DNA of 64,000 bases. Origin: Methanoregula boonei 6A8 (lineage in GTDB: Archaea; Halobacteriota; Methanomicrobia; Methanomicrobiales; Methanospirillaceae). Every line of letters begins with the position of its first letter. The stretch's first letter is position 1. The stretch covers positions 2,232,001 through 2,296,000 of the forward strand of contig NC_009712.1 of the NCBI RefSeq assembly GCF_000017625.1, written 5' to 3'. Made by a program: the position numbers and the translations under genes. This document shows positions 2,375 through 52,706 of the stretch, piece after piece. Below the pieces are notes generated by a model. The model had not been told where the DNA came from. It worked only from the letters and a program-made list of their open reading frames with translations, and did not search any database.

Positions 2375-2707
2375 ATGAGATATACAATGACCGATGGAAC
2401 AAACCCCGCCCGAACCCAGCTCTTCACCTACGTGCACGATGCGAGCCGTCTGGAACTGCTTGTCCGTATCGCCTACTGGATCCTGATTGGAATCGTTGTC
2501 TGGGTCTACGGGATCATAACATTCATATGCCTGTTCATCCAGTGGTTCCACATCCTGATTTTTGGCAGGCGGCACGAAGGTCTCTCCAACTTTGCCAAAG
2601 GCTACCTGGAGTATCTTGTCCATGTGATGAATTACGTCTACATCATAAACGACAAGCGCCCCGACATCCTGCCGGTAACAACCAGAGTTTTCGAGGAAAG
2701 GGCATAA
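2375..2707 (+). CDS. DUF4389-type membrane protein
   Basis: The protein is about 110 residues. The motif SRLELLVRI is followed by a long hydrophobic segment (about residues 25-55, possibly two close helices) and then FGRRHEGLSNFAKGYLEY and a tail ending in DKRPDILP. This is the layout of the DUF4389 family of small membrane proteins, whose function is unknown. ATG codons at 2375 and 2387 are both possible and neither has a clear ribosome site. A T-rich TATA-like stretch about 25 bases upstream would allow a leaderless message. It converges with serA. Confidence 0.7.
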   Translation: MRYTMTDGTNPARTQLFTYVHDASRLELLVRIAYWILIGIVVWVYGIITFICLFIQWFHILIFGRRHEGLSNFAKGYLEYLVHVMNYVYIINDKRPDILPVTTRVFEERA

Positions 2708-2788
2708 ACACCCCGGCAAAATCCGATTTTCTTTTTTAGCACAGCGCCGGTCTGAGTGTGAATAACGCAAAAAAGTATCAAAAAAGAG

Positions 2789-4393
2789 TTAAATCTTCTT
2801 TGATGAGATCTTGGCAAACGTTGCAGAGAAGATACCCGGCATTGAACGGATCTCCTTCATCACGTCCTCTGGCACCTCACTGTCCACGTTTAAGACCATG
2901 AGCGCCTCTTCACCGGCGTTGATCCGGCCAACCTGCATGCCGGCGATGTTGATATTGCATTTCCCGAGGATGGTGGACGCCCGTCCGATCACGCCCGGCT
3001 TGTCCAGGTGCCGGGAGACAATGACATAGCCCTCCGGGATCAGATCCATCGTGTACTTGTCAACGGATACGATCCGGCTGCGGCCTTTTACAAACACAGT
3101 CCCGCATACGGTCTCTTCAGTCTTATCGGTTTTTACCCGGATCGTGATGAGGTTTTTAAACCCGTGTGCCTCTTCGGTTACCGTTTCGCTCATCGCAATC
3201 CCGCGTTCCTTTGCTACAAACTCGGCGTTAACAATATTGACCGGGGTCTGGAGGATAGGATCGAGAAGGCCTTTGAGAACGAGGCGGGTTACAAACTTCA
3301 TGCTTCCGGCATAGGCTGCAAGCTCGCCGCCATAGATGCACTCCACAGAGGCAAGCCGGCCCTCGACCGTCTGGATCGCAAAGCGTCCCATCTTCTCGGC
3401 AAGCTCTGCAAACGGTTCGAGTACTTCGGCATGCTCGGTCGGGACGATCGGTGCGTTCACCACGTACTTCGCTGAGCCGCCGTTGAGGACCTCGACACAC
3501 TGCTTTGCAACCTGAATTGCCACGTTTTTCTGTGCCTCAACCGTGCTTGCACCCAAGTGAGGAGTTACGATCACGTTGTCGAGCGAAAGAAGCGGGGATT
3601 CGAGCGGGGGTTCGGTTTCAAAGACATCAAGCGCTGCTCCGGCTACCTTGCCGCTCTTGATCGCATCCACCAGTGCCGCCTCATCAATGATCCCGCCACG
3701 GGCGCAGTTAATGATCCGCACGCCATCCTTCATCGTGGCAATGCTCTTTGCATTGATCACGTGTTTTGTCTCCTTGATCAGCGGAGTGTGCACGGTGATC
3801 ACATCGGCAACCGTGAAGAGCTCGGCAAGGGACATCACCCTGACGCCGAGCTGGGCAGCCCGCTCTTTGGAGATAAACGGGTCATAGGCAACGCATTTCA
3901 TGTCCATTGCATTTGCCCGCTTTGCCACTTCGCGGCCGATCCGCCCGAAGCCGACGATCCCCAGTGTCTTCTCGTTGAGCTCCACGCCCATGAACTTGCT
4001 GCGCTTCCATTCCTTCTTTTTGAGGCTCGCGTTTGCCTGGGGGATGTTCCGGGCGAGTGAGAGCATCATCGCCATCGTGTGCTCGGTTGCTGCAAGGGTA
4101 TTTCCCTCAGGAGCGTTTGCCACAATTACACCCTGCCGGGTTGCCGCGTCCACGTCAACATTATCCACGCCGACACCGGCCCGCCCGATAAACCTGAGCT
4201 TTTTCCCGGCGGTGATCACCTTTGCGGTGACCTCAGTACCGCTCCGCACAATCAGGGCATCGTACTCACCGATGACCCCGCAGAGCTCATCTTCCTTGAG
4301 ATCGGTCTTGACGTCAACCGTAAAGGCCTCTTTCAGGATAACCAGCCCTTCTTCCGCCAACGGATCGCTGACGAGTATTCTAGCGTTTGCCAT
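2789..4393 (-). CDS. serA: D-3-phosphoglycerate dehydrogenase
   Basis: SerA oxidises 3-phosphoglycerate to 3-phosphohydroxypyruvate with NAD+, the first step of serine synthesis. At 534 residues it is the long form. The NAD-binding fold has GFGRIG at about 148-153. Catalytic residues fit R232 (in NCARGGIIDE), E261 and H279 (TPHLGAST). An intervening (allosteric substrate-binding) domain follows, then a C-terminal ACT domain from about residue 462, beginning IVSRHLDKPGVIG, which usually gives feedback control by serine. It is monocistronic and divergent from ppsA. Serine made here can feed the glyA product encoded 28 kb away. Confidence 0.97.
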   Translation of the reverse strand: MANARILVSDPLAEEGLVILKEAFTVDVKTDLKEDELCGVIGEYDALIVRSGTEVTAKVITAGKKLRFIGRAGVGVDNVDVDAATRQGVIVANAPEGNTLAATEHTMAMMLSLARNIPQANASLKKKEWKRSKFMGVELNEKTLGIVGFGRIGREVAKRANAMDMKCVAYDPFISKERAAQLGVRVMSLAELFTVADVITVHTPLIKETKHVINAKSIATMKDGVRIINCARGGIIDEAALVDAIKSGKVAGAALDVFETEPPLESPLLSLDNVIVTPHLGASTVEAQKNVAIQVAKQCVEVLNGGSAKYVVNAPIVPTEHAEVLEPFAELAEKMGRFAIQTVEGRLASVECIYGGELAAYAGSMKFVTRLVLKGLLDPILQTPVNIVNAEFVAKERGIAMSETVTEEAHGFKNLITIRVKTDKTEETVCGTVFVKGRSRIVSVDKYTMDLIPEGYVIVSRHLDKPGVIGRASTILGKCNINIAGMQVGRINAGEEALMVLNVDSEVPEDVMKEIRSMPGIFSATFAKISSKKI

Positions 4394-4536: not shown

Positions 4537-6822
4537 ATGAACGATGTGCCCAATATTCTATGGCTCGAAGAGATCAGGAAGGAGGATATTGCCTCTGTGG
4601 GCGGCAAGGGCGCGTCCCTTGGAGAGATGGCTTCGATTGGTCTTCCGGTTCCCCCGGCCTTTGTGGTCACGGCCCAGGCGTTCCGGCGGTTTCTGGTCGA
4701 GACCGGCCTTGACCAGAAGATCTTCAAGGTCTCGGAAAATATAGACGTGGAGAATAATGCGGTCCTTGAAAAGGCCGCCGATACCATAAAGGCCTTGGTT
4801 GTCAAGGCAAAAATGCCGGCAGCGATAAAAGAGGACATCAGGGCCTCGTATAAGAAGATGGCCCAAAAAGACCTGATCGTTGCGGTCCGGTCGAGCGCCA
4901 CGGCAGAAGATCTTCCCGATGCAAGTTTTGCCGGCCAGCAGGAGACCTACCTCAATATCAAGGGCGAGACTGCGCTTCTTGCCGCAGTCCAGAACTGCTG
5001 GGCCTCGCTCTACGGGGCACGGGCAATCTACTACCGGGCCAAGCAGGGATTCGAGGAACACACGGTCAATATCGCAGTCGTGGTCCAGCAGCTGGTCCAC
5101 TCGGAGAAGGCCGGCGTCATGTTCACTTCCCACCCGATCAGCGGGGAGCCCCTCACCATCATCGAGGGTTCATGGGGCCTTGGCGAGGCAGTTGTCTCCG
5201 GGTCGGTTTCTCCGGATCACTATGTTTTTGACCAGCGGACTGAATCAATCGTGGAGGTCAACCTCGCTAACAAGAAAGTCGAGATCATCCCAGACGGGTC
5301 CCATGGCACAAAACTCGTTCCGGTTGATCCGGCACGGCAGGACGCACGGGTTCTCCCGGACGAAGAGCTCTCCAAGCTCGCGATGTACGGCAAGATCGCC
5401 GAGAACCATTACGGCGTACCGCAGGACGTTGAATGGGGCATTATTGCCGGGACAATCTATATCCTCCAGTCCCGGCCGATCACGACAATCGGGAAGAAAG
5501 AGGCAAAGGGCATGTCAGGACAGGGCAAAGAGGCAAAGATTCTCCTGAAAGGACAGGGAGCGGCACCAGGTACCGCGAGCGGGAAAGTGGTCATCATCCG
5601 AGATGTAAAGGACACGGGTGCGGTCAAAGATGGCGATATCCTTGTCACCCGCATGACCAACCCGGACATGGTGCCGGCAATGAGAAAGGTCGCCGCCATC
5701 GTGACAGATGAAGGAGGCATGACCTGCCATGCAGCCATTGTATCCAGGGAACTGGGCACCCCTGCGGTAGTCGGGACCAAAACCGGTACGCAACAGCTCA
5801 AAAACGGGCAGGTAGTCACCGTTGATGGTGAGATGGGCTTGGTGTACGAAGGTGCCATCAGCAGCGCAGCACCGGCAAAGGCGGGCGCAGCACCGGCAGC
5901 CGCACTCGGAAGCGCACCGATCATCACTGCCACCAGCGTGAAGGTGAATGTCTCGATCCCCGAGGCAGCGGCCCGGGCGGCAGCAACCGGCGCTGACGGT
6001 GTCGGCCTGCTCCGGATCGAACACCTGATCCTCGGGCTCAACAAGACACCGGGATGGTTTATCGCCAACCATAAGGAAGAGGATTTCGTCAAGGAACTCT
6101 ATGACGGCATCAAGATCGTGCTCGATGCCTTCCCGGGAAAGACGGTCTGGGTGAGGACACTCGATGCCCCGACCGACGAATTCCGGAACATGCAGGGCGG
6201 CGAGAGCGAACCCCACGAACACAACCCGATGCTCGGCTGGCGCGGAATCCGTCGTGACCTCCAGAGCTTCGACCAGTTCCGGCTCCAGGTAGAGGCATTT
6301 AAAAGGCTCTGGAAGGCCGGTTACGAGAACCTTGGTGTCATGTTCCCGATGGTCTCCCACCCCGATCAGTTCATCAGGGCAAAGGAGATGATGGCCGGCT
6401 GGGGCGTGGACGTGGAGAACGTCACCCTTGGTATCATGATCGAGATCCCGGCAAGTGCCATTATGATCGAGGATTTCCTCCAGGCCGGCATCAAGTTTGC
6501 CTCCTTTGGCACGAACGATCTTATCCAGTACACCATCGCCATTGACCGAAACAACGAGAACGTGGCGGATATGTACAACCCCCAGCACCCGGCGGTCCTT
6601 GCCCTGATCCACGCTGCAATCCAGAAGTGCCGCGAATACAATGTCGAATGCTCGATCTGCGGTCAGGCCGGATCCGATCCCAAGATGGCGGTCTGGCTTG
6701 TGGAACACGGGATCACCAGCATCTCTGCAAATATCGATGCCATTGCAAAGATCCGGGAAGCGGTCGCAAAGACCGAGAAACGCATCATCCTCGAAGCTGC
6801 GAGAAACCGCGATGCTCAGTAA
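4537..6822 (+). CDS. ppsA: Phosphoenolpyruvate synthase
   Basis: PpsA converts pyruvate, ATP and water to PEP, AMP and phosphate, the gluconeogenic entry step of an autotroph. The protein has 761 residues and the usual three parts. An N-terminal ATP-grasp half begins SVGGKGASLGEM. The swivelling phosphohistidine domain carries GGMTCHAAIVSR with the phospho-accepting His at about 398. The C-terminal PEP/pyruvate TIM barrel contains NPMLGWRGIRR and a late CSICGQ with the catalytic Cys. An Ala/Pro-rich linker near 446-466 joins the last two. The frame is open upstream, but the ATG at 4537 starts the conserved sequence. The gene overlaps mfnA by 11 bases, so the two are probably co-transcribed. 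Confidence 0.96.
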   Translation: MNDVPNILWLEEIRKEDIASVGGKGASLGEMASIGLPVPPAFVVTAQAFRRFLVETGLDQKIFKVSENIDVENNAVLEKAADTIKALVVKAKMPAAIKEDIRASYKKMAQKDLIVAVRSSATAEDLPDASFAGQQETYLNIKGETALLAAVQNCWASLYGARAIYYRAKQGFEEHTVNIAVVVQQLVHSEKAGVMFTSHPISGEPLTIIEGSWGLGEAVVSGSVSPDHYVFDQRTESIVEVNLANKKVEIIPDGSHGTKLVPVDPARQDARVLPDEELSKLAMYGKIAENHYGVPQDVEWGIIAGTIYILQSRPITTIGKKEAKGMSGQGKEAKILLKGQGAAPGTASGKVVIIRDVKDTGAVKDGDILVTRMTNPDMVPAMRKVAAIVTDEGGMTCHAAIVSRELGTPAVVGTKTGTQQLKNGQVVTVDGEMGLVYEGAISSAAPAKAGAAPAAALGSAPIITATSVKVNVSIPEAAARAAATGADGVGLLRIEHLILGLNKTPGWFIANHKEEDFVKELYDGIKIVLDAFPGKTVWVRTLDAPTDEFRNMQGGESEPHEHNPMLGWRGIRRDLQSFDQFRLQVEAFKRLWKAGYENLGVMFPMVSHPDQFIRAKEMMAGWGVDVENVTLGIMIEIPASAIMIEDFLQAGIKFASFGTNDLIQYTIAIDRNNENVADMYNPQHPAVLALIHAAIQKCREYNVECSICGQAGSDPKMAVWLVEHGITSISANIDAIAKIREAVAKTEKRIILEAARNRDAQ

Positions 6823-10048: not shown

Positions 10049-10228
10049 ATGGACAAGACAGGTATTGCGGCACTGGTTGTCGGAATTGTACTGCTGATTC
10101 TTGGGGGCCTTGCAATCTGGGCATTCCTGCCCGATGTGATCGTTGCGGTAAAAGGCCTGATCGGGATCGTGGTTCTCCTCGCCGGCCTGATGCTGATCCT
10201 CTTCGGGGTTCTGATCATTAAGGAATAG
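10049..10228 (+). CDS. Small two-helix membrane protein
   Basis: The 59-residue protein has two hydrophobic helices (about residues 6-27 and 34-55), separated by a short turn and ending in IIKE. It has its own TATA box. I chose the ATG at 10049 because the longer open frame upstream overlaps the methyltransferase gene and has no coding character. The family is not recognised. Such small Leu/Val/Gly-rich double-helix proteins are common in Methanomicrobiales. Confidence 0.6.
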   Translation: MDKTGIAALVVGIVLLILGGLAIWAFLPDVIVAVKGLIGIVVLLAGLMLILFGVLIIKE

Positions 10229-10307
10229 ACGATTTATTCCAGCTTTTTTTCTAAAAGAGGATAGGCCCGGGTTTGATCCGGGCAAAAAAAGGGATGTTTT
10301 CACACCG

Positions 10308-11051
10308 TTATACTTTCACCACGATACATTGGGAGGCCGCGGTCTCCACCACAGGTTCGGGCTTGTTGGCAAAGTACTCATCCACGGCCTTTCGCACCCC
10401 CGGTGCGGTAAGATAATCATGGGAAACAATCACCCCACCGGGGCTCATCCGGGGGTAAAAAAATTCAAGGCATTTTTTGGTACTGTCGTAGGTATCCACA
10501 TCGAGATTGACAAAGGAGAATTTCTTGTCCGTAACCGGGGCTGATGTATCGGGAAAGAGACCTTTGTACAGGTGAACATTCTTCTCGGACGCCAGGTACG
10601 CTTTCACCTCATCGTAGGAGGCGGCAAATTTCCCCTCATAGAACGGCCAGACCGCATCCACGTCATCCACCCGGGGCAGGCCGGCAAAGGTGTCGAAAAG
10701 GTGGAGGGCACGATTCCCCTTGGCCGAACAGATAATCTTGGCCGATCCCCCTTTGTATACACCAACCTCCGCAATATCCCCTGGCACTTTCTCGGTGATC
10801 TTTGCAGCCATGTAAATATGGTATGCCTCGATGTCTTCCAGCAGGAGATCCGTATCGGACCGGATCTTCTTGAGGGACGAGGTAAAGCGCTTACGTTCCG
10901 CGCTGCCATAGTGCGAGAGTCGTCCCCGGTGCGCGATATCATATCCCATAAATGGCTCCAAAACCGCCAGTTTCCTGAATTTCAGCAGGTATTTGCTGGG
11001 CATTATGGTATCGAAACACCAGATAAGGCGTTTTTTGGGGAACAAACTCAT
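10308..11051 (-). CDS. TylF/MycF-family SAM-dependent O-methyltransferase
   Basis: The 247-residue protein resembles the macrocin O-methyltransferase (TylF) family. It has AEVGVYKGGSAKII as SAM motif I (about residue 94), HLFDTFAGLP, FVNLDVDTYDSTKKCLEFF with metal-binding acids, and PGGVIVSHDY with a His-Asp pair. In the family the substrates are sugar hydroxyls. In an archaeon a role in glycan or surface-polysaccharide methylation is plausible but unproven. It is the last of three minus-strand genes (11973 to 10308). Confidence 0.8.
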   Translation of the reverse strand: MSLFPKKRLIWCFDTIMPSKYLLKFRKLAVLEPFMGYDIAHRGRLSHYGSAERKRFTSSLKKIRSDTDLLLEDIEAYHIYMAAKITEKVPGDIAEVGVYKGGSAKIICSAKGNRALHLFDTFAGLPRVDDVDAVWPFYEGKFAASYDEVKAYLASEKNVHLYKGLFPDTSAPVTDKKFSFVNLDVDTYDSTKKCLEFFYPRMSPGGVIVSHDYLTAPGVRKAVDEYFANKPEPVVETAASQCIVVKV

Positions 11052-11103
11052 AGCCGGTGGTATTGGTCGTGCCGGGATTTATAGTGATGATATGGCAGGT
11101 GTC

Positions 11104-11463
11104 TCATCTCTTCCGGAATCGCACTGAATAAAACGCGACCGCAACCGCAGCGCAGAGAAGGATAATGCCGGCTACAAGGCGAGAAAGAATCACCAGCCCT
11201 GCAACGTACGCAAGCAGGACCGAGATCAGGCCCGGGATACGGCCGTTTATGTACGCCCCGATCACTGAGACAATAAGGATGATCATGGGCAGGAGAAGAA
11301 AGAACGTCCGGAGAGCAGGATCCGAGTACTGTGCGGTGACCGCAGAGCCAAGTGCATTGATGAGAAGGTTTTCCGGGGAAATGCCAATAGCGGTCCAAAG
11401 ACCGGAGAGGAAGCCAAACCCGATTACGAACTGCCAGATGAACCGATGGACTTTTTTTGCCAT
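11104..11463 (-). CDS. Hypothetical membrane protein, about four helices
   Basis: The 119-residue protein opens MAKKVHRFIW. Hydrophobic segments lie at about 10-27, 52-68, 77-92 and 94-112, and the tail is basic (VRFRKR). It fits positive-inside membrane topology with both ends in the cytoplasm. I recognise no family. It sits between the hypothetical protein at 11518-11973 and the TylF-like gene on the same strand. Confidence 0.65.
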   Translation of the reverse strand: MAKKVHRFIWQFVIGFGFLSGLWTAIGISPENLLINALGSAVTAQYSDPALRTFFLLLPMIILIVSVIGAYINGRIPGLISVLLAYVAGLVILSRLVAGIILLCAAVAVAFYSVRFRKR

Positions 11464-11517
11464 ACCACTTCACCATAACGGGCGATAATTCGGACCACCG
11501 CACCACATCTCTGGAGA

Positions 11518-11973
11518 TCACCGGAGTTTCTGCCCCGATCGCCGGACCGGATCTTCTTCCACGTCAAATTCGTCCAGGAACGGCATAAGGCCGGTGATGA
11601 CTGGTACTGGCCGGCCTGAGGAGGGATCAGGCTCTTCCCCCAAGGAAACGATCTCGATCATCATAGGGAATTCGTCCAGCGTGCGGTTAAACGAAGGATC
11701 GTTTTCCAGCGTGAAGGAGAGGAACCGATCAACCCGGACATACGGACGCTCGTACTCGGGAACTCCACAAAATTCCGCTTCCACTTGGACAAGCGTCCTG
11801 TCTGTAGCCAGATCCTTTTCGAAAAAGAGATACACGGCAATCCCGTAATCTCGGCCAATGGCATCAAGGTGCCGGATCTCAACCATCCGGCCGCGATCTA
11901 TGCCGATCGATGCCAGTTTTTCAGAGAGCGTTGCTCCGCAAAGGGCGTCCCGGGCGGCCTGGGTATCATCCAT
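11518..11973 (-). CDS. Hypothetical acidic soluble protein
   Basis: The protein is 151 residues, soluble and strongly acidic toward the C terminus (EFDVEEDPVRR). It has no signal peptide, membrane segment or recognised motif. One central stretch (AVYLFFEKDLATDRTLVQVE) looks like beta strands. The codon pattern and its position ahead of two co-oriented genes suggest it is real. No function is proposed. Confidence 0.6.
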   Translation of the reverse strand: MDDTQAARDALCGATLSEKLASIGIDRGRMVEIRHLDAIGRDYGIAVYLFFEKDLATDRTLVQVEAEFCGVPEYERPYVRVDRFLSFTLENDPSFNRTLDEFPMMIEIVSLGEEPDPSSGRPVPVITGLMPFLDEFDVEEDPVRRSGQKLR

Positions 11974-48641: not shown

Positions 48642-49886
48642 CTACGACGATTTGGAAAAGATCACGATCCGGTTTGTGTTGGTGCCGGACCGGTTGTTCC
48701 CAACGCCCCAGATATGCGACGTTTTCGAGAAATTCTGCTGGTTGATGAGGACACCCTCGCACCGGAACCCTGCAGAGATGCCCAGAGGTATCACGTGCTC
48801 TTCGAGCCGTACCGTCTTTTTCCGTACCTCGCCTACCTCGAATGCCACATACCCCCCCGGGGCAGTAATCCGGAACAGCTCAAAAAACACGGCACCCATG
48901 ACCGTTTCCCAGTCAGCAATAGTCCGTGCCATGGTGATCGTATGACCGATGGCATCTTCGTCAAGGCCGCAGAACCAGCACCGGAGCCAGTTGTCCTCCC
49001 GGTACTGGACGATATCGAGAAACGGCGGTGAAGTGACGGTAAGCCGGACTGCACCTGAGGGAATCCCCGGTGTTGATCGGGCATCCCCGGTCAAAAACCG
49101 GGCATCTGGAGCAACGCGGGAAAGGTTTGCATAATCCTCCAAGGACAGTCCGCCAACAAGGCTCTTTGTCTTGTGCACGATGCGCCGGTGGGTGTCGCGG
49201 TACTCCGGTACCTGGTTTCGTTTCCGGTTGATCCGTTCCTGGCTCCTCGGGGAGACCGCCTGGTTGGGAGGAAGGGTGTACACCGAGAAGAACCCGCTCG
49301 AATGACCGGTCAGACGGTTGGTAGCCACCATCGCGATCCATCGATCCACGGTATCAGCAGTGCCATCCTCTTTTCGCCCGAGCAGGTACCGACGCAATGC
49401 GACGATCTCCCGCTCGGTATCCGGGTGGTAGAACATGGAAAGATCGCGGTCGGCCCGGTCCCCGTCCCGGGGAATTGTTTCGAGCCTTTCGGCCACGTCC
49501 CTGACTGTGGGTGGGGTGAACCGGGGCTCGGCAAGAACCCGGGAGAGCGGGTTTGCATCGTTTGCAATAACCTTTCGGCCACGGAGCCCCGCTTCAATCG
49601 CGGTTGTCCCCCTCCCACTGAAAGGATCATATATAATATCGCATTTCCTGGTGAGCAGATCAATAAAAAAACCGGGCAACTGGGGCTTGAAGCAGGCCCG
49701 GTACGAGATCTCATGCAGAGAGCTGGCCTGACGCTGGCGCGATGTCCAGAACTCGCCGGTATACTGACGAATGTGGAGCGGGCCGGCGCACTCTTCCTCG
49801 CACACCGGATCTCCTGACGGTCCGCGGAATCCTGCAAGGTATGTGTGGAACGCAGGGGGGCTGCTGTTTTTGGACCGTCCGCTCAT
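48642..49886 (-). CDS. Site-specific DNA methyltransferase, permuted motif order
   Basis: About 414 residues. SAM motif DPFSGRGTTAIEA lies near residue 87, and the catalytic TSPPFLDIVQY near 285, with about 190 residues between them. Amino-methyl (N6-A or N4-C) enzymes usually order these either way; the I-to-IV order with a large middle part is of the alpha/zeta-type layout. SRQRQASSLHEISYR before motif I suits this group. It has GTG (49895) and ATG (49886) start options. No restriction gene lies nearby, so it looks like an orphan methylase. Confidence 0.85.
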   Translation of the reverse strand: MSGRSKNSSPPAFHTYLAGFRGPSGDPVCEEECAGPLHIRQYTGEFWTSRQRQASSLHEISYRACFKPQLPGFFIDLLTRKCDIIYDPFSGRGTTAIEAGLRGRKVIANDANPLSRVLAEPRFTPPTVRDVAERLETIPRDGDRADRDLSMFYHPDTEREIVALRRYLLGRKEDGTADTVDRWIAMVATNRLTGHSSGFFSVYTLPPNQAVSPRSQERINRKRNQVPEYRDTHRRIVHKTKSLVGGLSLEDYANLSRVAPDARFLTGDARSTPGIPSGAVRLTVTSPPFLDIVQYREDNWLRCWFCGLDEDAIGHTITMARTIADWETVMGAVFFELFRITAPGGYVAFEVGEVRKKTVRLEEHVIPLGISAGFRCEGVLINQQNFSKTSHIWGVGNNRSGTNTNRIVIFSKSS

Positions 49887-49986
49887 CGCAATCACTTCCG
49901 CTGCATACCGGTGGGGGGGATAATCGTATATCTCCTGTGCTTCCTGTACGAAAGAGGGAAAAAACCTGTGCAGTCCTCACATGCGG

Positions 49987-50460: not shown

Positions 50461-50507
50461 GATTGGTCGCCCCGACCAATTCCGGAATTGATCGGTCCGG
50501 CTCATTT
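50461..50507. repeat. Palindromic repeat, copy 1
   Basis: It holds the hairpin ATTGGTCG-CCC-CGACCAAT (50462-50480) followed by CCGGA-N9-TCCGG (50482-50500). About three quarters of its bases match copy 2 at 50581-50627. Confidence 0.7.
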
Positions 50508-50514
50508 CAGAAGC

Positions 50515-50527
50515 GATCGGACCGATC
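50515..50527. repeat. Palindrome GATCGG-A-CCGATC
   Basis: Perfect odd palindrome, the reverse complement of the one at 50610-50622. Confidence 0.7.
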
Positions 50528-50544
50528 ACTCCGCTTTACCTGAA

Positions 50545-50578
50545 CTTCCAGTAGAAGCACATGTGGAGATACTGGAAG
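50545..50578. repeat. Nine-pair inverted repeat
   Basis: CTTCCAGTA and TACTGGAAG with a 16-base loop that contains the palindrome CACATGTG. It lies between the two copies of the palindromic repeat. Confidence 0.7.
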
Positions 50579-50580
50579 AA

Positions 50581-50627
50581 AAGAGGTCGCCCCGACCGAT
50601 TTTGAAATCGATCGGTCCGATCAATTT
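50581..50627. repeat. Palindromic repeat, copy 2
   Basis: It contains GGTCG-CCC-CGACC (50585-50597), CGATTT-TG-AAATCG (50597-50610) and GATCGG-T-CCGATC (50610-50622) back to back. Confidence 0.7.
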
Positions 50628-50801: not shown

Positions 50802-52706
50802 TCAGGTGTGGGTAAAGTAGGCCCGGACACCGCTCTCTGTCACGGCATCGATTCGTGCAAAGGCAATCCGTTCGAACTGCACAACCTTCCCGACCTCGGT
50901 TGTTACTGCGGGTTCGCAGGCGCCCTTCATTTCCCCATCCTGCGTGAGGAGGGTGCAGGGTACAAAAGACTGTGCCGGCAGCCACTGGATGATCCGGGCC
51001 TTTGCAGCACGGGCATCGGCTAGCGAGTCCCCGCCATACGAGAATGAGGGCGTCTCGCCATCCCATGTAATATTCACGTTGAAGAGGTCTTTTAACCGTA
51101 ACATCGTTATCTCGCGTTTTGGTTCGTACTTGCGAGGAACTAATTTTCTATCGTTTAACGAAGATGATAATGAACCTTCAAGTTTTGGTAGGTTGTCAGA
51201 GTGAACTGATTCCTTTTTCTCATTTATTGAAGTGATCGGCGAAACATTTTCAGAAGATATTTTGGCTTGAGGTGACTCATAGTCGCCTCCTTGGGAGATG
51301 TCATTGAGCGAGGAAACAATCACAGAAAATATTTCGGCACGCGGGATGAGGACGGTACCGGTAAATTCAAGGGTACGTGTTCCTTTCTCTTCGTGCCCCG
51401 GGTGGAGCATGGCGTGGGCTGTGTGGGCCGATGCCCCCGCGATCTTTGCCTCAAGCGGGTCCGGGACAAAGAAGTACCGGTTTGCCACCGGGTCAACGAT
51501 TTTTTTGTTCTCTGCGTACAGGTTGTCCCACGAAAACGAGATATCCACGTCGCCGATCCCAATAGCGATCATCGCATTCTTGACGGCATCGGGGCTGATA
51601 CCCCGCCGGGCAAGGGCACGGAGCGTACCAAGGTGGATGTCGTCCCAGCCGGTATACTTCCCTTCATCGATCCCCGCATGCATCTGAGAGGTCGAGAGCA
51701 CCACGCCCTCGATACCCATCCGGCCATAGTGCCGGTACACCGGGACTTTCCAGCCAAAATGGTCGTAGATGTAGCGCTGGCGTCTTGTGTTTGCGATGTG
51801 GTCTTTTCCCCGGATCACGTGCGTCACACCGAGCAGGTGGTCGTCGGCAACAACCGAGAAGTTCATCAGCGGGTAGACCCGGGCGTCCCCGATTTTGGGG
51901 TGGAGCGGGGCATCAAGGATCCGGAAGATCGGGTAGTCCCGCATTGCCGGGTCGGGGTTCAAAAGATCCGTCTTGACCCGGACCGAGGCTTCGCCCTCCT
52001 TAAATCCACCATTCAGCATCTTTTCCCAGAGCAAAAGCGCCGTCTCAACCGGCTGGTCGCGGCAGGGGCAGGCCTTTTTCGCATCTTTTAGCGCCTTGAA
52101 ATGCTCGTTCTCGCAGGTGCAGACATACGCCCCGCCCCGTTCAATGAGCTGTTTGCAGAGATCGTAATAGATGGGGAAGCGCTCGCTCTGGGTGACCGTC
52201 TCGGTGATCCCAAGACCCATCCACGCGATATCCTCCTTTACCATATCGTAGGCTTCGGGGTCAACGCGCTTGGGGTCCGTGTCTTCGATGCGGAGGATGT
52301 ACCGGCCGCCGTACTGCTTCACGTAGGCGTCATTGAGCGCCGCTGCCCGGGCATGGCCGATATGGAGCGGACCGGAGGGGTTGGGAGCAAACCGCATGAC
52401 CACGCCGTGTTCTGCGCCTTCAAGATCGGGGAGTACCTTTTTCTTCTCGTGCTTCTCGTGAAGTGCGGCAAACATTTCCGGAGAGAGAGACTGGAGTTTT
52501 GTCACCCGCTCTTCGGGAGAGAGGGCCGCGACATCCGCGATCGCGTCTTTTGCCGCTGCGGATACTTCCTTTGCCTGTTTGCGCAGTTCGGGATGTGCAC
52601 CCATCACCATACCGATAACCGCCCCGGCCTGCGGTACGCCACCGTGCCTGACCGCGTTCTGGAGTGCACACAGGAAAAGCGCGGCCTTTATCTCGTCCCC
52701 GGCCAT
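50802..52706 (-). CDS. gltX: Glutamyl-tRNA synthetase with an AT-rich in-frame insertion
   Basis: The 634-residue protein charges tRNA-Glu. The HIGH motif is in RFAPNPSGPLHIGHARAA (about 105-122) and a KMSKS-like VLSTSQMHAG (about 335). The C-terminal beta-barrel anticodon region has MLRLKDLFNVNI. The usual archaeal length is near 550-570; the excess is residues about 466-525, a polar Ser/Asn/Lys-rich segment beginning SSLNDISQGG and ending SSSLNDRKLVPRK, in DNA that is clearly more AT-rich than its surroundings. It disrupts a turn within the beta-barrel region but keeps the frame. The gene follows the idsA gene closely. Confidence 0.93.
   Translation of the reverse strand: MAGDEIKAALFLCALQNAVRHGGVPQAGAVIGMVMGAHPELRKQAKEVSAAAKDAIADVAALSPEERVTKLQSLSPEMFAALHEKHEKKKVLPDLEGAEHGVVMRFAPNPSGPLHIGHARAAALNDAYVKQYGGRYILRIEDTDPKRVDPEAYDMVKEDIAWMGLGITETVTQSERFPIYYDLCKQLIERGGAYVCTCENEHFKALKDAKKACPCRDQPVETALLLWEKMLNGGFKEGEASVRVKTDLLNPDPAMRDYPIFRILDAPLHPKIGDARVYPLMNFSVVADDHLLGVTHVIRGKDHIANTRRQRYIYDHFGWKVPVYRHYGRMGIEGVVLSTSQMHAGIDEGKYTGWDDIHLGTLRALARRGISPDAVKNAMIAIGIGDVDISFSWDNLYAENKKIVDPVANRYFFVPDPLEAKIAGASAHTAHAMLHPGHEEKGTRTLEFTGTVLIPRAEIFSVIVSSLNDISQGGDYESPQAKISSENVSPITSINEKKESVHSDNLPKLEGSLSSSLNDRKLVPRKYEPKREITMLRLKDLFNVNITWDGETPSFSYGGDSLADARAAKARIIQWLPAQSFVPCTLLTQDGEMKGACEPAVTTEVGKVVQFERIAFARIDAVTESGVRAYFTHT

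Follow-up and report, generated by a model that had tools for sequence, protein, structure and literature searches.

A species-specific, AT-rich in-frame insertion in the glutamyl-tRNA synthetase of Methanoregula boonei

How does an essential single-copy enzyme come to carry a long AT-rich segment within its coding sequence? The glutamyl-tRNA synthetase gene (gltX) of Methanoregula boonei 6A8 raises this question. It lies in a 64-kb window, positions 2232001 to 2296000 of a genome that consists of a single contig of 2,542,943 bp and whose closest relatives are Methanoregula MAGs. An earlier note on this DNA, made from the sequence alone, proposed that an element or a duplicated linker may have entered gltX in frame and been tolerated in an exposed loop. 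Here, we examine the limits, distribution, composition, predicted structure, and possible origin of this segment.

Identity of GltX and limits of the insertion

50802 to 52706, minus strand: gltX, archaeal-type glutamyl-tRNA synthetase (GluRS), 634 aa, from the open reading frame call, Pfam, and the best solved relative, 3aii
51108 to 51329, minus strand: in-frame lineage-specific insertion, codons 460 to 533, from the alignment with congeners; GC 39%

The gene gives one match in the whole genome, and its product has the features of archaeal GluRS: a HIGH-type motif, a KMSKS-type region, the tRNA-synt_1c domain, and both anticodon-binding domains, with all three Pfam models (tRNA-synt_1c at 7.2e-76, 1c_C, and 1c_C2) above cutoff. 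The catalytic motifs PLHIGHARAA and LSTSQ are intact and invariant in an alignment with 20 congeners. The best solved structural relative, 3aii, is the nondiscriminating GluRS of Methanothermobacter thermautotrophicus, a full-length member of the same enzyme family that matches residues 10 to 474 and 537 to 633; it has a short turn, PGDDLGEGPLRL, at the site where GltX of M. boonei has about 75 residues.

GltX is collinear with the 20 congeners up to I459 and again from T534, with a one-residue indel near residue 273, and the alignment has a single clean gap, at the turn that carries the insertion. Congeners read ...GTVLIPKSEI-SPDV-TMLRLKDLFNV..., and M. boonei reads ...GTVLIPRAEI-[74 residues]-TMLRLKDLFNV.... 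Thus, 74 residues stand in place of 4, a net gain of 70 aa and 210 bp, a length divisible by three. In the 33 congeners in which the site is readable, the equivalent segment has 4 to 5 residues, and the spacing from E[ILVF] to RLKDL is 7 to 8 residues versus 77 in M. boonei. The alignment confirms the in-frame insertion described earlier and corrects its size: the first estimate of about 60 residues (466 to 525; positions 51115 to 51315) was about ten residues too short.

Distribution among relatives

In genus-wide searches, the GltX match breaks exactly at the insertion site in all genomes holding the site. No insertion at this site was found in the other genomes of a 296-genome phylum sample searched with an insert-less query, which crossed the site in every alignment listed in full (about half of the matches); the genomes behind the rest had one match each, and those with two matches or short ones were examined individually. 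The insertion is species-specific, M. boonei being alone in carrying it among about 300 related genomes, and the site at which relatives lack it is alignable and otherwise conserved, as is characteristic of a lineage-specific insertion. Presence in all close relatives with normal composition had been named beforehand as the outcome that would speak against an insertion; absence holds in both the genus searches and the phylum sample.

Split gltX matches in other archaea were considered as candidates for the same insertion, but each could be traced to a deletion, to a smaller insertion at another place in the domain, to split contigs, or to partial copies. The nearest relative of the gene (G032:C45) is 96% identical over residues 1 to 308; its contig ends at codon 308, so the assembly lacks the 3' half of this gltX and the insertion site falls outside the covered part.

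Composition and reading frame of the insert

The AT richness first seen by eye is borne out by the numbers. GC content is 0.392 in the insert versus 0.589 in the rest of gltX, and by codon position it is 0.446/0.378/0.351 versus 0.64/0.419/0.709. The insert falls within the part of the window where GC content is lowest, and it forms the largest 70-codon GC dip within an open reading frame among 233 sampled, namely, those with 250 codons or more in the window plus 400 kb of the genome sampled as 20 stretches. Composition changes sharply at the insert limits, and the codon choice (TCA, CCA, CCT, and TTA) is out of keeping with that elsewhere in gltX. A wider foreign tract that includes the flanks was rejected, since flanking GC3 is ordinary (permutation P values of 0.26 to 0.83), despite a cluster of the rare codons ATA and TTA beside the insert edges.

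The encoded segment is polar, as had been supposed (20% serine versus 3.4% in the rest of the protein; GRAVY of -0.76 versus -0.21), but its low complexity is only mild, with an entropy of 3.71 bits compared to a mean of 3.97 and a minimum of 3.66 for other 74-aa windows. Its overall charge is -1, and its last 14 residues, RKLVPRKYEPKREI, are basic, with 6 K/R versus 2 D/E.

The reading frame stays open in 0.95% of mononucleotide shuffles of the insert, and the remaining five frames contain 2 to 9 stops, indicating that the frame has been maintained or was derived from coding sequence. The open frame and the coding-like codon positions also bear on a sequencing or assembly artefact, which might be suspected of an insert carried by a single genome; with the genome assembled as one contig and no other genomic copy available for misjoining, such an error is scarcely credible.

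Predicted position in the fold

51342 to 51356, minus strand: native beta-strand before the insert, residues 451 to 455, confident in the AlphaFold2 model
51093 to 51107, minus strand: native beta-strand after the insert, residues 534 to 538, AlphaFold2 model

In an AlphaFold2 model built from the 21-sequence alignment, the C-terminal domain is confident, with ten-residue blocks mostly at 75 to 93, and the catalytic domain is poor (shallow alignment), such that the whole-protein geometry is not reliable. Residues 470 to 531 have pLDDT values below 50, mostly below 30, and residues 456 to 471 are drawn as a helix. The insert is predicted to join two neighboring strands of the anticodon-binding beta-barrel, and the model indicates that it is probably disordered and surface located. 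The congener gap and the low-pLDDT loop between confident strands agree with the earlier proposal of an in-frame insertion that an exposed loop could tolerate. When the sequences are aligned, the site corresponds to residues about 392 to 397 of Escherichia coli GlnRS, in the anticodon-reading domain; residues around this position in GlnRS contact the anticodon.

Has the loop taken on a function, for instance by contacting tRNA or a partner protein as a flexible arm close to the anticodon? The location in the anticodon-binding barrel, the open frame, and the basic end would fit such a role. Against it stand the predicted disorder, the overall negative charge, the lack of a domain match, and the occurrence in one species only, which leaves no conservation signal to draw on, and we regard recruitment as unlikely. 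A more specific version, in which the disordered, partly basic arm beside the anticodon-binding surface alters how GluRS selects tRNA(Glu) and tRNA(Gln), or links the enzyme to a partner, for instance the GatDE amidotransferase, seems quite improbable. The loop most likely does nothing essential.

Repeats inside and across the insertion

51305 to 51338, minus strand: copy 1 of an imperfect 34-nt direct repeat, crossing the native/insert junction, codons A457-E458-I459 onward
51233 to 51266, minus strand: copy 2 of this repeat, in the same reading frame and 72 nt (24 codons) farther downstream, from codon 481
51300 to 51314, minus strand: first SSLND, TCC TCG CTC AAT GAC, residues 465 to 469
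51150 to 51164, minus strand: second SSLND, TCT TCG TTA AAC GAT, residues 515 to 519

The two copies of the 34-nt repeat are identical at 26 of 34 positions (76%), and their score was reached by none of 300 dinucleotide shuffles and none of 800 codon shuffles. It is the sole strongly significant DNA repeat within the insert and was overlooked by the earlier note, which drew attention instead to the pentapeptide SSLND. That motif does occur twice with different codons, and a repeated 5-mer appears in just 0.8% of shuffled inserts (P of about 0.008); the copies do not mark both ends, as had been thought, the second falling some 15 residues short of the right end. Because the 34-nt repeat is significant and spans the junction between old and new sequence, at least one local duplication was involved.

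Evidence for copying of the native linker is less clear. P-x-x-E/K-I/G units at 455, 479, 507, and 529 are suggestive by eye of a linker copied several times, but this reading is not borne out: at the protein level, the insert interior fits the native-linker profile no better than shuffles do (P = 0.30), and self-similarity between insert parts two and three is weak, its score being reached by 9 of 300 shuffles. Hence, the idea of a duplicated linker is half sustained, in that a duplicated component is present and a clean copy of the native linker is not demonstrable. Tandem Repeats Finder detected no tandem array. An 8-nt repeat, TTCCTCGC, with copies 176 nt apart, was rejected as a target-site duplication; this distance is not divisible by three, and a repeat that short is near chance.

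Searches for mobile elements, inteins, and introns

Rickettsia palindromic elements are in-frame insertion elements within protein genes, and like them, the insert is short, in frame, and located in a housekeeping gene. Unlike them, it is not palindromic and is present as a single copy. DNA and protein searches of the M. boonei genome found no second copy; the best other DNA match is 21 nt long (E value of 0.02), and this match, at genome position 855263, falls in an unrelated open reading frame and was discarded as a related copy. The insert has no palindrome or unusual folding (z = -1.4), inverted repeats of just 12 to 15 nt, and no terminal repeats above chance. Searches of phages, plasmids, viral contigs, and species genomes returned no relative either. 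A dispersed or palindromic element was therefore rejected, and the earlier suggestion that an element had entered the gene finds no support.

The same searches bear on whether illegitimate recombination brought an AT-rich foreign fragment, derived from a plasmid, a virus, or some other organism, into the turn in frame, with the internal repeat arising later. The low GC3 (0.35 versus 0.71), the alien codons, and the sharp change at the insert limits would fit such a capture, but no source sequence was found in those databases and the direct repeat overlaps the native junction; we consider this origin possible though rather doubtful. It concerns only where the DNA came from and is compatible with a disordered loop in the protein.

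Might the insert instead be removed from the product, as an intein, an archaeal bulge-helix-bulge (BHB) intron, or a translational bypass? Inteins and BHB introns likewise interrupt conserved archaeal genes, and BHB introns occur in a few archaeal protein genes. However, the insert has no domain match, including none to a Hint/intein splicing domain, in agreement with the earlier note, which saw no intein splice motifs, and it is far below intein size. One weak BHB-like match lies near the insert limits, among 33 such matches in the region; splicing at those nearest the limits would take out 203 or 205 nt and shift the frame, such that no frame-keeping BHB is available. With an uninterrupted reading frame through the insert and a length divisible by three, removal is very unlikely.

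A probable tolerated loop expansion

Taken together, the insert is probably a translated, intrinsically disordered, tolerated loop, restricted to one species and grown at least partly by local duplication. The turn between neighboring strands of the anticodon barrel would have been lengthened from 4 to 5 to about 75 residues in the M. boonei lineage after its split from the sampled congeners. At least one step would have been the local duplication that left the 34-nt imperfect repeat, offset by 24 codons in frame, with its first copy overlapping the native junction. The first seed may have been native or captured DNA: the fit of the interior to the native-linker profile, no better than that of shuffles, lends a native seed no support, and the AT-rich composition would also suit captured foreign DNA. 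In a long unstructured turn, the choice of amino acids and codons would be relaxed and the sequence could drift toward AT, with selection keeping only the frame open; the loop would be tolerated because it is a flexible protrusion.

Lineage-specific low-complexity or disordered insertions are known in aminoacyl-tRNA synthetases and other housekeeping proteins. The GltX insert resembles them in being in frame, polar, predicted to be disordered, placed in a surface turn, and confined to one lineage; it differs in its host protein, an archaeal GluRS, in its strong local AT shift, and in its traceable internal repeat. No sequence shared with a known case of disordered insertion was found, and a literature search found nothing on this GltX insert. 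It most likely reflects the tolerated expansion of a loop and not some novel class of element. Its value is that the insertion is large and recent, keeps the frame, and affects an essential enzyme encoded by one gene, and that the empty site can be aligned in more than 30 sister species; with its sharp change of composition and traceable repeat, it can serve to illustrate how disordered loops arise in housekeeping proteins. Greater importance would follow only if the loop were shown to alter tRNA charging.

Surroundings of gltX and its 3' ends in relatives

Downstream of gltX, the window encodes a 417-aa DNA methyltransferase (48642 to 49895; PADLOC type II MTase, E value of 2.6e-142), separated from gltX by a stretch without clear genes. 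The intergenic DNA at 50465 to 50626, also downstream of gltX, contains GATCGGTCCG/GGTCGCCCCGACC repeats, comprising a 35-nt family with three copies as well as an inverted pair of 45 nt, together with several poly-T runs; a repeat-rich stretch also adjoins the partial gltX copy of the congener described next.

In one congener (G062, C1:632000-646500; 2686 to 3084 and 10103 to 11791), the last ~397 bp of gltX are duplicated about 7.4 kb downstream of the intact gene. The two 3' copies are 96% identical and do not differ at all over about 320 bp in their middle, which suggests gene conversion. Between them lie a 1,177-aa AAA ATPase with a RyR domain, a radical SAM/DUF5131 protein, and a 447-aa protein, the latter two with weak matches to the candidate defense models PDC-M41B/A; the arrangement has the look of a cassette that entered at the gltX 3' end through recombination. 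A genome of another family (G259:C37, about 5057 to 5452) has a stand-alone partial copy of the gltX 3' end on a contig different from that of its full gltX; this copy is about 84% identical to its own full-length gene and starts near the same codon as the copy in the congener. The 3' ends of gltX may be a recurrent site of integration or recombination.
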